From: Alkalimarinus coralli
GTDB taxonomy: Bacteria > Pseudomonadota > Gammaproteobacteria > Pseudomonadales > Oleiphilaceae
Direction: 5' to 3'
DNA: 64,000 bases
Assembly (NCBI RefSeq): GCF_023650515.1
Contig: NZ_CP096016.1
Span: 112,001-176,000, forward strand
The translations under genes and the position numbers were made by a program. This document shows positions 38,645 through 44,408 of this stretch, piece after piece. The first letter of the stretch is position 1. Every line of letters begins with the position of its first letter. The notes beneath the pieces are model-generated. The model saw only the letters and a program-made list of their open reading frames with translations. It had not been told where the DNA came from and did no database searches.

Positions 38645-39910
38645 TTATGCCGCAAAAGCAAGGCCATACCGGTTATCCTCATGCCAGGCGATGGTGGCTC
38701 TCTTTTTGTCGAACTTAGGTGAACTAACCGATACCGGCCCTTTCATATCACCATCGTAGATAAGTTGAATGCCGCCCTCAGACATATCGACCACATCGCC
38801 TTGAGAAGAAGATGTGCCAAACTCAATATTTGCGACCAGTCCCGGTGTTAGCGCGCGGTTGAACTCACGGCGAGCGACGGCTCGGGTGTAGTGATCTTGA
38901 TGAGCGTGATGAATTGGCAGCAGGTTCTTTGGTTCATAGTCCTCTCTGTTGCTCTGGCGATCAAATACCGATTGATCTATGCGAACATTGATCGGCGGAT
39001 TATTTTCATCGCCATCAAGTACCCGGCGACCTGACTCTCCATTGATATTCTCCAATAAGCGGTAAAATCCGCTATATGACTTATAGAGCTTCCCATTGCT
39101 GTTCGGCTTTAGATTCTTCAAGCTTGACTCGTCGAATGCCAACCCCAGATTTTTGGCCTTTTCAATCATCCAAAGTAAAGCCAGGTCTGATAGCCCCGTA
39201 TTTGGGTAACCGCCGCCGATATTGGAGTGAACACCTGCAAACCATCGCTGTTCAACGCACTGGTCGTCGTCAATCTCGCCGGTCCATAAATCTGCTTTAA
39301 ATGGAGGACGCCTTTCATCAACGGCGAGCGCCTGGTAGGCATTTTTAATCGGTTTAGAGAGTTTGGTATCGAAAAAGCCAACCCAGCGACGCTTGACCAG
39401 GCGTCCCAATAACGGTGTGGGTGCCCCAAGTGCACCTACCGTATCCCAGGCCCCCATCATAAGAATCTCTGGCCGTTGATTGTTTTTGTACGGGTTTACG
39501 CCACGCTCTGAAGGAGGGGTACGATAATATGCGTAGGCTTGAGGCAGAGATTCCAACTGATTCTTGGGCAACAGGCCTATCGTGTTTAATAGCCCCCCTA
39601 GCGCTCGAACGGTATAAGCGCCTCGACTGAAGCCAAAGCAATAAATATCGTCACCCGTTTGGTAGTTGTGGGTGAGAAAACGATATGCATCGAGGATATT
39701 CTTCGCCACGCCAATGCCGAAAGCACCGCCTGCATACTTGTCCAGTCCGCCTTGCGTGCCGACCCCTTGATCGTAGAAGACGACTTGATGATGGTTGTTG
39801 GATGCGGGGAGGATTCCTCTTAAAATCTTAACCACGTTTGTTGGTTCACTGTCTGGCTCATTCCAGGTGCCATCACAGCAAATAACGATTCTTTTATTGT
39901 AACCTTTCAT
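38645..39910 (-). CDS. DUF2235 (Tle1-like) alpha/beta hydrolase fused to a PilZ domain
   Basis: 421 residues. Residues 5-330 are a DUF2235 domain: RIVICCDGTWNEPDSEPTNV, the nucleophile elbow CFGFSRGAYTVRAL (Ser at about 95), WDTVGALGAP (candidate acid) and WFAGVHSNIGGGYP (candidate histidine). The same domain is found in type VI phospholipase effectors (Tle1). Residues about 346-419 look like a PilZ domain with both c-di-GMP motifs: RREFNR (347-352, RxxxR) and DMSEGG (375-380, DxSxxG), ending AWHEDNRYGLAF. I know of no standard family with this order. Hydrolysis of lipids and gating by c-di-GMP are inferences. No VgrG or chaperone is adjacent. Confidence 0.82.
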   Translation of the reverse strand: MKGYNKRIVICCDGTWNEPDSEPTNVVKILRGILPASNNHHQVVFYDQGVGTQGGLDKYAGGAFGIGVAKNILDAYRFLTHNYQTGDDIYCFGFSRGAYTVRALGGLLNTIGLLPKNQLESLPQAYAYYRTPPSERGVNPYKNNQRPEILMMGAWDTVGALGAPTPLLGRLVKRRWVGFFDTKLSKPIKNAYQALAVDERRPPFKADLWTGEIDDDQCVEQRWFAGVHSNIGGGYPNTGLSDLALLWMIEKAKNLGLAFDESSLKNLKPNSNGKLYKSYSGFYRLLENINGESGRRVLDGDENNPPINVRIDQSVFDRQSNREDYEPKNLLPIHHAHQDHYTRAVARREFNRALTPGLVANIEFGTSSSQGDVVDMSEGGIQLIYDGDMKGPVSVSSPKFDKKRATIAWHEDNRYGLAFAA

Positions 39911-40053: not shown

Positions 40054-42045
40054 CTAGGCGTGCCTCATAGAGCCTGAGCAGATATCATGTAAAACCTCCC
40101 TTTCTTCGTGTTCTACTACGCCGTCAGCCCAGGCCACAGACTCTAACGAATAGATGATGACTTGTCTTAAATGCGGCAGGTAATGGAGGCTTTTCAGGCT
40201 GCTTTCCGGTGCCTCGTATTCCGCAACGTTGTCTTCTGTGCCCATTACTTTATTGAGTATGTCTTCAGCAATATTGCCTGAAAAATCGTCTAGTGAACTG
40301 TCCAGATGGAAGATAAGCTGTCTAATGATTTTTAGCTCAAGCGGGTGTAGATGATCATCACACTGCGCAACGACCAGGGCGTTTTTGACCAGAATGGTTT
40401 CTAACTGTCCTCGCTCCAATTGACGGGTTTCCTTGCAGATATTGTCATGGTAATAGCGAAGAAAACTGAACAGGCTCTGCATTGGTGAGTTCAATTTGTT
40501 CAGTTGATACCAATAGGGGATAAAGTAACCTATCAGAAGGCCAATGGAGCCAGCTTTTATAATCTCCATCAGCCAGCTAAGCGATTCGATATAAGACTGC
40601 CTGAAGCCGGGGTCTTTGGCGTGATACAGCATAAACACGATAGGCAACGAAAGCAGCGTCATAATTGCGCCTAGCTTGAGGCAGCACGTGACCCTGAATT
40701 TACTGAGTCGAACGGCTTCAGTTAATGGTTCTGGTTTATGGGCAAGCTCCAGTAGCCAGGCTAAGCTAAACCCTAGTATGAAATTTTGAATGGCGTATGG
40801 GTAAGTTCTTGCCATCGCGCCAGCTATGTCGGTCACGCTGTCATTGATAGACGCCTGTAGAGTCCGTAGCGCGAATACTGAAATAACCCAGCCAAGTGCT
40901 GACAGCACCCCCGCAGAAAATCGAGTAACAAATGCAAAGCTGTCACTCACAATAAATCGTTTACGAAAATTACGATTCATGTAAATCGCTGCAAAAACGG
41001 CTATGTTATAGGTTGTTGCCATTATCAGCGTTTGAAAAAGGGTTGATGTTGATAATAGGCTTTGGTCCCTTACCAGATTATCAAGCATGGACAGGCCAAA
41101 GTAGCCACCAAAAATCAACACCATAAGCTGTAATATTTGAAAGAACGTGATGTCTTTTATCGACTCGCCGCCATCATCGAAGCCTATCTGTCTTGTGACT
41201 TCGACGCGTTTCTTCTCGCTCAATTCTGAGCTGTTAATCATCAGAACCAAAAACTCAATGACCCACTTTTCAATTTGGTCGAGGCGATCTTCAATCGTGC
41301 TAAACAGGTTCCTTTGCATTTTTCTTGAGCGGGTATTGCCCGGCAGGTCTTCCGCCATTAGCTGAAAATAGCTGGACATCTTCTTGGTCAGGCTTTGCAT
41401 ATCAAAGAACAGCCGTTCGTATTCGGACTTATGCATCTCGATATAGCGGTTATAGCGAGGGTATTTTGAGTTGTTGCGTTTGCGTATTTCTAGCAATAGC
41501 AGCGAAACTTTAACCCATTGATAATTGACCGATGAGTCCGGCTCAAAGACCAAGTACTCGCGCCTATACTCCCATTCATCAGCCAGCTTCAATAGTTGCT
41601 CTTTTTGGTATGGGCTGGTCGTTGTGATGTGGGAGCGCTTTAGTTTTTCGATGCGAACAATCATGTAGGCAGGTATTTTTCCCAGATCCCACATACGCTC
41701 AAGAATTCGCTTATCAAATTTAGAAAGCCATGGAATGCTCGGCAGCATTGTCGTTAGAATCAGTGTGGCGCCAATCGCCGGGGGGATGCCTTCGAGTGCG
41801 GCTGAAATAGAAGGGAAGCCGGGAATCAGTTTACTAAGGGATGGATCTAATTTATTGAGATTATCAACACAGAGGTACAAACCTAAAAATACGGTAAGCG
41901 TAATCGTCAGGTAACAAAGATAGACAAGGTTGAAGCGAGTTATGGTTGTTGCGTATCGGTTTGACTCAGGAGTGTTGTATCGGCGAAATGAATATAAAGC
42001 GACCAAAAAAGCGCCGGTAGCAAGTTGTATGATTTCATCGTTCAT
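40054..42045 (-). CDS. Large multi-pass membrane protein with TerB-like C-terminal region
   Basis: 663 residues, not recognised as a named family. Hydrophobic segments occur near residues 38-60, 85-105, 305-325, 345-365, 385-410, 425-445, 460-480 and 500-520. A charged region of about 170 residues (130-300), rich in R/K/E and helical, separates the first two helices from the rest. The last 130 residues resemble TerB: helices with acidic pairs, NALVVAQCDDHLHPLELKII and SLESVAWADGVVEHEEREVL. TerB-like domains bind metals at membranes and occur with tellurite and phage-defence systems. It lies between the Imm49-like gene and the DUF2235-PilZ gene on the same strand. Confidence 0.6.
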   Translation of the reverse strand: MNDEIIQLATGAFLVALYSFRRYNTPESNRYATTITRFNLVYLCYLTITLTVFLGLYLCVDNLNKLDPSLSKLIPGFPSISAALEGIPPAIGATLILTTMLPSIPWLSKFDKRILERMWDLGKIPAYMIVRIEKLKRSHITTTSPYQKEQLLKLADEWEYRREYLVFEPDSSVNYQWVKVSLLLLEIRKRNNSKYPRYNRYIEMHKSEYERLFFDMQSLTKKMSSYFQLMAEDLPGNTRSRKMQRNLFSTIEDRLDQIEKWVIEFLVLMINSSELSEKKRVEVTRQIGFDDGGESIKDITFFQILQLMVLIFGGYFGLSMLDNLVRDQSLLSTSTLFQTLIMATTYNIAVFAAIYMNRNFRKRFIVSDSFAFVTRFSAGVLSALGWVISVFALRTLQASINDSVTDIAGAMARTYPYAIQNFILGFSLAWLLELAHKPEPLTEAVRLSKFRVTCCLKLGAIMTLLSLPIVFMLYHAKDPGFRQSYIESLSWLMEIIKAGSIGLLIGYFIPYWYQLNKLNSPMQSLFSFLRYYHDNICKETRQLERGQLETILVKNALVVAQCDDHLHPLELKIIRQLIFHLDSSLDDFSGNIAEDILNKVMGTEDNVAEYEAPESSLKSLHYLPHLRQVIIYSLESVAWADGVVEHEEREVLHDICSGSMRHA

Positions 42046-42381: not shown

Positions 42382-43245
42382 TTAGCCTTCTTCCTGTGAT
42401 TTGTTCAGCCCACCGATTAACAGCCCCTTCGGTAAAAGGTCGTGTTCAACAGTGACCCGTAACCCGGCATCAAGCGCCAGATTGGAGAGGGCAACGGCAT
42501 AGTCGCAGATAAACTCTTCTGCTGTTCCCCATAAATCCTCTGCGGGGATGTATGATTTTTTATAGAACTTCAGTTGTAATGCCAGGCCTTCATTAAATAC
42601 AACCTCATCCCGTTTCAGTATACCGTACAAGGTCATGCTAAGGGTAAAATAGTGCATATCCCCTCCCGTTTTTGGGGGTTTTTCGGCATACTCCTGAAGG
42701 GTTTTCTCTAACAATCGCTGGCCTTTTTGCAGCTCATTCAGCAAGGCATGCTTGTAGGCATAGGTGTACCGGTTGACCACTGCATCCATTTTTTTGCCAT
42801 CTTTACTGTCCTGATACCAGTAGGCCAGTGCTCTGGCGGTCTCAAAGTCAGCCCCCATTAAGGCGTAGTTAAAACCGTCAATGGCATTGGTCTCCATGAC
42901 CGCCGCCCAGTTTACCTGTCCATACCCTGCGCTGGGCGCTTTCGGGGGGGGGGATGTATCACCGACATAATCCGGGTCTGTGACGTCATAAGCCATTTTG
43001 AAGCATTTAAGCATACACTTGCCAGCGGTTGAGAATTCGTACCTGAACCTTTCCGGAGATTCGCCATTTAAAAAACGCGCGCGGCCTAAACCGGCATAAT
43101 CCATAGCTGTACCAGAATAAACACTCTGCAAGGAGATATCCTGCTCCTTGTACCACCCGCTTTTGTAATCATCTTCAGACTGTCGAATGGTTTTTAAATC
43201 ACCCTCAATCCAATAATCAATATCTTCCTGATCTGCTTTTTTCAT
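42382..43245 (-). CDS. Imm49-like immunity protein
   Basis: 287 residues, mostly helical, no signal peptide or membrane segment. The layout and the C-terminal part (WGTAEEFICDYAVALSNLALDAGL and VEHDLLPKGLL) resemble the Imm49 immunity family, though I base this on general pattern only. It starts at the base where the PAAR-nuclease gene ends, so the two are translationally coupled as toxin-immunity pairs are. A run of ten C (42944-42953 on the - strand) lies within the coding sequence and encodes SPPP. Confidence 0.6.
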   Translation of the reverse strand: MKKADQEDIDYWIEGDLKTIRQSEDDYKSGWYKEQDISLQSVYSGTAMDYAGLGRARFLNGESPERFRYEFSTAGKCMLKCFKMAYDVTDPDYVGDTSPPPKAPSAGYGQVNWAAVMETNAIDGFNYALMGADFETARALAYWYQDSKDGKKMDAVVNRYTYAYKHALLNELQKGQRLLEKTLQEYAEKPPKTGGDMHYFTLSMTLYGILKRDEVVFNEGLALQLKFYKKSYIPAEDLWGTAEEFICDYAVALSNLALDAGLRVTVEHDLLPKGLLIGGLNKSQEEG

Positions 43246-44408
43246 TATTTAAACGCCTCCATTACCAGTTGTTTGACTTTGTCAAAGCTCTCTATATTAA
43301 AATCATCCAGAGTATCTGTGACATTACCTCTTGAGTCCCGCTCCAGTATTCGCACCCGCCCGGTCTCTGTATTGGTATGGGTCGACAAATGGCGTTTTTG
43401 CCCTTTGCTACGAATAATCTCACTCCAGAGCTCAATTTCACTATTGACATAGGGGCCACCTTGCCTATTGGATGGCTGATTGACCTTTTTATGCTTTTGT
43501 TTGGTCATTAGTTTAGCTCTGCGTTTATTTTTCTTTTCCGAGCTTTGCCTTTCCAAATTGGTGTTTTTAGCGACTGCCAGGCTGTCTCTATTATTCCCTT
43601 TGGCTTCTATTTCAACTAGTTTACCGCTTTTGTCCAGTGCAAGGTCATCTGGCCCATGGTAACGGTCAATATAGCGCGGGTCTGTGGTGATACCCTGACG
43701 TTTTTTGGCCTGCTCCATCCCTACTTTGCCCAGTGCCTCACTGCTGGAGCGGCTGTTTAGCAAGGCTTGCTCAATATCCAGTATTATTTGATCAGGCTTG
43801 CGCAGCAGTGATTTGCCCCGACTACCCAGCGCCGTAATGGCAGATACAACCGCCGGTGTTTGCGGCAGGTTGCGCAGGCTCTTTGCTGCTGCCTGCTCTG
43901 TTTCATTGCTGAGTGGAATCATATCCCGGCCTTCGGTTTTATAGCGATAGGCAACCTCCTCAGCGCTTAGTATTTCGCCTGTGGCCTGATCCTGATATTG
44001 AATAATGCCGCTGCCAGCCATCCACTCCGCGTGAATTGCCGCATTCTCTCTGAGAAACTGATTAAGCAGCTCCTTGGCCCCGCCAACCAGTGTATCAATA
44101 AAGGACGCTTCAGCTGCAGGTGAGGGTTCCACTGGCGTGACATCGCCAATAAAAACATCACCGGAACCGCCGATAACAATACCACCGTGGGCGGTTACGC
44201 TCCCCATGGTCGCGGCGGGCATGCCGTTAATGAATACGGTTGAAGAACCTTGGACAATGGTATCTGGCGGGCCATTGCAAACAGCCATATCGCCTACGCG
44301 AGCGGCAGGTTGGCCATTAATGAAAACGTTTGATGAGCCGGTGGCAGTGGGGCCTCCCTTATGGCGGGTTTTGCCATCGACAAGGGGGCACTGGTGCATG
44401 TCGCCCAA
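43245..44408 (-). CDS. PAAR-repeat protein with PD-(D/E)XK nuclease-like C-terminus, type VI effector candidate
   Basis: 387 residues from a TTG. Residues 1-95 are a PAAR domain (GDMHQCPLVDGKTRHKGGP, GSSNVFINGQPAARVGDM, GSSTVFINGMPAATMGS), the tip of a type VI spike. The middle is a linker. The C-terminal 170 residues hold RYHGPDDLALDKSGKLVEIE then AKG: the D...ExK pattern of PD-(D/E)XK nucleases. The usual PAAR start residues (AAR before LGDMH) are encoded upstream in frame, but no ATG/GTG/TTG precedes them before a stop, and the only Shine-Dalgarno-like GGAGAGG is about 15 bases further up. The start is therefore uncertain. The target is presumably DNA or RNA of rival cells. Confidence 0.78.
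   Translation of the reverse strand: MGDMHQCPLVDGKTRHKGGPTATGSSNVFINGQPAARVGDMAVCNGPPDTIVQGSSTVFINGMPAATMGSVTAHGGIVIGGSGDVFIGDVTPVEPSPAAEASFIDTLVGGAKELLNQFLRENAAIHAEWMAGSGIIQYQDQATGEILSAEEVAYRYKTEGRDMIPLSNETEQAAAKSLRNLPQTPAVVSAITALGSRGKSLLRKPDQIILDIEQALLNSRSSSEALGKVGMEQAKKRQGITTDPRYIDRYHGPDDLALDKSGKLVEIEAKGNNRDSLAVAKNTNLERQSSEKKNKRRAKLMTKQKHKKVNQPSNRQGGPYVNSEIELWSEIIRSKGQKRHLSTHTNTETGRVRILERDSRGNVTDTLDDFNIESFDKVKQLVMEAFK

Follow-up and report, generated by a model that had tools for sequence, protein, structure and literature searches.

A DUF2235 hydrolase fused to a C-terminal PilZ domain in Alkalimarinus coralli and its relatives: a candidate c-di-GMP-controlled lipase of the producing cell

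The window analysed here is a stretch of 64,000 nucleotides from Alkalimarinus coralli (contig NZ_CP096016.1, positions 112,001 to 176,000), and coordinates given without a locus name are positions within it. On its minus strand, positions 38645..39910 hold an open reading frame with an ATG start codon that encodes a protein of 421 amino acids. The original prediction had described this gene, without stating its strand, as a DUF2235 hydrolase joined to a PilZ domain. It is a real gene: Pfam finds both domains, and relatives share the architecture. Residues 6-250 (39161..39895, minus strand, as for all features of the gene) form a Tle1-like alpha/beta hydrolase domain that matches PF09994 (T6SS_Tle1-like_cat) with E=5.5e-78, a family formerly named DUF2235. 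The PilZ domain occupies residues 347-419 (38654..38872). The four motifs placed by the prediction, CCDGTWNEPD (residues 11-20), GFSRG (93-97), RREFNR (347-352) and DMSEGG (375-380), are all found at those residues. GFSRG is the nucleophile elbow (39620..39634) and contains Ser95, and the two C-terminal motifs contain the c-di-GMP motifs RxxxR (residues 348-352; 38855..38869) and [DN]xSxxG (residues 375-380; 38771..38788). No 19-residue segment of the protein exceeds 1.01 on the Kyte-Doolittle scale, and a strongly hydrophobic stretch, the mark of a membrane span or signal peptide, is absent. A search of NCBIfam gave no match to the fusion protein.

Taken from the window protein alone, the PilZ call is marginal. 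The match to PF07238 (20.1 bits, E=8.4e-4, residues 347-419) is present but below the Pfam cut-off of 22.5 bits, and the Pfam check proposed along with the prediction came out clearly for the hydrolase and less so for the tail. In a six-frame scan of the genome, the fusion tail scored 23.8 bits, above the cut-off, as the weakest of 15 PilZ matches. We therefore turn to the relatives, represented by a profile of 40 fused proteins that includes the window protein (profile A2); the protein of locus L034, which contains unknown residues, was kept out of the profile, and its tail retains both motifs. PF09994 was matched by 40/40 members and PilZ by 29/40 (E<=0.01, best 1.1e-6), leaving 11/40 with no PilZ match. 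Compared with the PDB, the tail of the profile matched the PilZ domain of BcsA (7lby and others) at E about 0.007. Alignment of the tail by hhalign with 12 of the 14 other PilZ domains of the same genome gave a probability of 97.4% (E=1.3e-11), a test biased upward by the choice of those 12 domains by motif pattern. Because the relatives match PilZ and keep its motifs, we regard the marginal single-protein call as settled, and these comparisons argue that the PilZ match is not due to chance.

Conservation was assessed over 59 fused rows, which represent 58 distinct genes, L023 and L171 being the same gene twice. Ser95, Asp156 (39443..39445, in WDTVG) and His228 (39227..39229, in GVHSNIGGG) are each kept in 59/59 rows. 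The hydrolase part of the profile found three relatives in the PDB, 9j3f, 4o5p and 6sjl, and the blocks GFSRGA, FDTVAAVG and GVHSDVGGG of 4o5p, presumably Tle1 of Pseudomonas aeruginosa, align with S95, D156 and H228. Given this alignment and general knowledge of Tle1, the three residues are predicted to be the catalytic triad, with Asp156 as its acid and His228 as its base.

In the tail, R348, R352, G380, W409 and G416 are invariant (59/59), residue 375 is D or N in 58/59 rows, and residue 377 is serine in 57/59, with T in L032 and N in L117. C371 is likewise kept in 57/59, and the next best tail column reaches 46/59. Judged by identity to the window protein, the tail evolves faster than the hydrolase: in the 55 rows from other genera, identity to the window protein is 15-38% in the tail (49 rows at <=30%) and 32-66% in the hydrolase part. 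The predicted ligand-contact residues are among the few tail positions kept by selection. For 12 pairs of near relatives, in several of which synonymous distances were saturated, dN/dS was 0.016-0.089 for the hydrolase (12/12 pairs) and 0.011-0.18 for PilZ (11/12 pairs, one pair not being computable).

A survey of genomes for the same fusion, which had been suggested with the prediction, found it, and found it to be rare. Counting a fusion where a match to the A2 profile had E<=1e-20 and reached the end of the PilZ part, we detected it in 22/163 genomes of a family sample, 12/293 of an order sample and 2/369 of a class sample; any match at all occurred in 79, 66 and 52 genomes, respectively. 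Among the 58 genomes around that of the window (own genome included), 27 matched, including 14 with a full-length match. Scanning the contigs of genomes yielded 53 loci, 28 with a PilZ-like tail in their translated C-termini; among the further loci, L033, L049 and L055 are cut off by a contig edge, and the proteins of most others stop shortly past the hydrolase. Among the carriers are Rheinheimera, Alkalimonas and Thalassomonas, as well as MAGs labelled Marinobacter, Neptunomonas, Spongiibacteraceae and Desulfuromonadaceae (two). The copy of Rheinheimera baltica DSM 14885 (L009 6001-7242) has an interrupted reading frame and was excluded from all counts; other Rheinheimera carry intact copies. 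We conclude that the fusion is real, rare and scattered over several families.

The fused genes group closely in a maximum-likelihood tree of the hydrolase domain (85 rows, 34 fused and 51 not, after 14 of 99 rows had been removed as near-copies or short): the fused label changes 3 times, compared to a shuffled mean of about 27. The tree search was quick and gave one support value, and L079 sits on a very long branch; a single origin of the fusion is compatible with it but not proven. On plasmids, 138 records hold relatives of the hydrolase, the best identity among the matches listed being 43.6%. Of the 30 rows listed for these plasmid relatives, most end at about residue 330-340, and two reach residues 367 and 371.

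Upstream of the fusion gene in the window, on the same strand, lie genes for a 663-amino-acid protein (40054-42045) that by eye is membrane-associated or hydrophobic and has a C-terminal TerB domain (E=1.4e-5), for an Imm49-family protein (42382-43245, by Pfam) and, 3.3 kb from the fusion, for a 387-amino-acid PAAR protein (43245-44408) whose C-terminal part has no assigned domain. The Imm49-family gene follows the PAAR gene, and together (42382-44408) they are likely a T6SS effector-immunity pair, which is probably unrelated to the fusion. By tblastn, the PAAR and Imm49 proteins had no match in 214 loci, and the window's sulfate permease and TerB protein matched only own-genome loci of that set. 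As a delivery partner for the fusion protein the PAAR protein was rejected, since PAAR is near the fusion in 1/27 genomes, the window's own.

Tle1 effectors would be expected to have a VgrG, a DUF4123 adaptor and an immunity gene beside them. This set does not adjoin the fusion in the window, where neither VgrG nor DUF4123 was found among the 16 ORFs scanned. Instead, VgrG and DUF4123 surround the other Tle1-type gene of this genome, near 2.69 Mb (L214 5957-11185), where we found a VgrG of 711 amino acids, a DUF4123 protein of 325, a 175-amino-acid protein with a lipobox-like start (by eye) and no Pfam match, and a 556-amino-acid PF09994 protein without PilZ. The last is 27% identical to the window fusion over 300 aligned columns. 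This is probably the genome's own T6SS lipase locus; the same gene order has been reported for Tle1 of P. aeruginosa, as has the toxicity of Tle1 directed to the periplasm (PMC13133936).

Across carriers, the presence of a T6SS was judged by the sheath family VipB (PF05943) alone, in genomes some of which are incomplete drafts; by this measure 27/33 fusion-bearing genomes have one. (Two of the genomes, G019 and G068, show the same places and seem to be one, so that the 33 carriers may be 32.) The fusion is thus not restricted to T6SS genomes, as a Tle1 effector would be. VipB is missing from 6/33 carriers: G009 (94% complete), G059, G065, which is a complete chromosome (Rheinheimera sp. D18), G071, and the MAGs G072 and G075, for which no completeness is given. 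PAAR (PF05488) was present in 20/27 carriers and absent from 7/27, and both VipB and PAAR are absent from G009, G059, G065 and G071.

The positions of VipB and the fusion could be compared in 23 of the 27 VipB-bearing carriers, and in 22 of these VipB is at least about 380 kb away or on another contig, with the proviso that draft contigs may adjoin. Thalassomonas is the one compared carrier with VipB near the fusion. In Thalassomonas sp. RHCl1 (L035, G073), which has 8 VipB matches, a T6SS cluster (L215 5338-19375) holds genes for VgrG, a large protein resembling a protein kinase, TssB, TssC and TssF. Measured downstream from the fusion, the VgrG gene ends at about 5.2 kb, and the part with TssB, TssC and TssF begins at about 11.9 kb. 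Between the fusion and VgrG are genes for a chemoreceptor, an FAD protein and a ferredoxin, the ferredoxin being assigned by sequence only. When 215 loci, with flanks mostly of 1.5-8 kb, were searched by tblastn with VgrG, TssB, TssC, TssF and DUF4123, a fusion flank was matched only in L035/L215. We conclude that there is no regular linkage of the fusion to T6SS genes.

No partner gene conserved across genera was seen beside the fusion in the loci read. Every neighbour found was lineage-local, and a conserved operon partner was rejected. In genus g5 (seven genomes, six with the fusion), a GGDEF gene adjoins the fusion in 6/6 genomes: in G022, G027, G032 and G446 it lies 90-95 nt downstream on the same strand, and in G008 and G444 it is divergent, about 0.4 kb upstream. 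These genes were assigned by Pfam in L061, L110, L106 and L211 and by motif in the other two. Because the adjacency occurs in one genus, and so reflects one or two events, and because such genes are numerous (74 GGDEF matches in G022 and 62 in the window's genome), its meaning for the fusion is suggestive only. Separately, in g5 loci L110, L113, L115 and L210, two GGDEF genes (372-373 and 405 amino acids) flank the fusion within about 4 kb. In family f215, pilin-like genes are divergent from the fusion in 4/4 loci read (L204-L207), with Pfam assignments (GspH, PilW) on L206 only. A YcjX-like/DUF697 gene is near the fusion in a sibling species of the window's, and genes for acyl-CoA ligase, acyl-CoA dehydrogenase or wax-ester synthase are near it in L103, L003 and L203. 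All these neighbours, the GGDEF genes included, are no more than leads, having been read with no control for chance.

We consider it reasonably probable that the fusion protein is a cytoplasmic DUF2235 serine esterase or phospholipase that is controlled by c-di-GMP through its own PilZ domain and acts on lipids of the cell that produces it. By sequence, the protein has both domains, the predicted triad and the ligand motifs, and selection maintains them. An enzyme working inside the cell is favoured because the motifs are conserved, there is no membrane or signal stretch, T6SS linkage is not regular and some carriers lack VipB. The GGDEF neighbours in g5 also count for it, as do the 62 GGDEF and 15 PilZ matches of the window's genome. 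Counted against it are the 11/40 profile members without a PilZ match, the 2/59 rows without the motif serine and 1/59 without D or N, the Thalassomonas T6SS cluster about 5 kb away, and VipB in 27/33 carriers. In the mechanism that we envisage, c-di-GMP would bind the RxxxR and [DN]xSxxG motifs of the tail, and the PilZ domain would then turn against the hydrolase so that the active site opens, as in BcsA; by analogy with BcsA, opening of the site, and thus activation, is more likely than closing. The substrate would be an acyl ester of a membrane or storage lipid, and its hydrolysis would be part of a c-di-GMP-driven change in lifestyle.

The original prediction had offered two settings for such control, the producing cell and a switch on delivery. 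The first draws its support from the fusion itself and from the conservation of the motifs. The second is weak at best. Here the protein would be a phospholipase effector of the T6SS, turned on or off by its PilZ domain during delivery, or would travel as cargo of the PAAR protein encoded 3.3 kb upstream. The catalytic family is named after Tle1 in Pfam, VipB is found in 27/33 carriers, the window's genome has both VipB and the same-strand PAAR gene at 43245-44408, and in Thalassomonas the fusion is followed downstream by the end of a VgrG gene at about 5.2 kb and by the start of TssB at about 11.9 kb. However, 6/33 carriers lack VipB, 7/27 lack PAAR and four lack both, and VipB is distant or on another contig in 22/23 compared carriers. 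PAAR is near in 1/27 only, and there it has its own Imm49-family gene beside it. T6SS genes on the fusion flank are confined to L035/L215, where three other genes intervene, and VgrG and DUF4123, missing from the 16 window ORFs, surround the separate Tle1-type gene of the same genome. In addition, c-di-GMP is a cytoplasmic messenger. With Thalassomonas as the only case in its favour, we judge an effector role to be very unlikely.

It is also conceivable that c-di-GMP binds to the tail and does not act on catalysis: ligand binding by a PilZ domain that has both motifs may leave the enzyme ungated. The domain would then serve to localise the protein, to oligomerise it or to hold a partner. The length of the inter-domain linker varies, and PilZ domains usually alter protein-protein or protein-DNA contacts, as stated in PMC4897644. 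We nevertheless think this unlikely, since no conserved partner gene is seen beside the fusion and control within a molecule takes its simplest form when both domains share one chain. That the domain is instead a structural relic, with c-di-GMP binding lost, would fit the 20.1-bit Pfam score of the window protein, the 11/40 profile members without a match and the faster divergence of the tail. Set against this, R348, R352, G380, W409 and G416 are kept in 59/59 rows and S377 and C371 in 57/59, where the next column reaches 46/59, and the PilZ dN/dS is 0.011-0.18 in 11/12 pairs; a relic is therefore improbable. A known anti-phage defence effector was also considered and rejected, 0 PADLOC families matching the fusion protein. 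Most of the evidence points to a fused branch of the Tle1-like family that acts inside the producing cell.

c-di-GMP is known mainly for steering motility, adhesion and polysaccharide. If the proposed in-cell function is correct, a lipid hydrolase under direct second-messenger control would connect the switch to sessile life with lipid turnover and would extend the well-studied c-di-GMP network to a new kind of target. An annotation of 'T6SS_Tle1-like' alone would then not mean a secreted toxin. In agreement with the view that the combination is undescribed, our search of an open-access library found no published description of a DUF2235-PilZ fusion, and the papers found there to contain both terms use them in unrelated places. 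In PMC3482391, DUF2235 appears in a list of toxin domains predicted to act on lipids.

The fusion protein shares with the Tle1 T6SS lipase effectors (PF09994; 4o5p) the hydrolase family and the blocks GFSRGA, FDTVAAVG and GVHSDVGGGY. It is shorter, at 421 amino acids compared to 556-884 for the own-genome Tle1-type protein and the three PDB relatives, and, unlike those effectors, it carries PilZ, has no VgrG or DUF4123 in the window and occurs in genomes without VipB. Cellulose synthase BcsA is likewise an enzyme with a C-terminal PilZ domain, the domain matched by the fusion tail profile (E=0.007), and c-di-GMP promotes its work through that domain, according to PMC8612006; BcsA is a membrane glycosyltransferase, whereas the fusion has a hydrolase fold and no predicted membrane span. 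Another lipid-related enzyme joined to PilZ is found in the NAS-PilZ N-acyl amino acid synthases Nas343 and Nas354, for which c-di-GMP control has been proposed (PMC4897644). As described there, they make N-acyl amino acids and are related to autoinducer synthases, whereas the fusion is a DUF2235 hydrolase. Because BcsA and NAS-PilZ are PilZ-fused enzymes already known, the fusion is not a new category. CapV is a patatin-like phospholipase of CBASS that is switched by cGAMP and forms part of a defence operon. The fusion protein would resemble it in being an intracellular lipase that responds to a cyclic dinucleotide; CapV differs in its hydrolase family, its receptor, its ligand cGAMP and its defence operon, and the fusion has no PADLOC match. 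More tentatively, as an idea that we find plausible without calling it probable, the fusion may represent a new class of c-di-GMP effector, a toxin-type hydrolase turned domestic lipase that would remodel the cell's own membrane or storage lipids as c-di-GMP rises, and thus a housekeeping counterpart of CapV.
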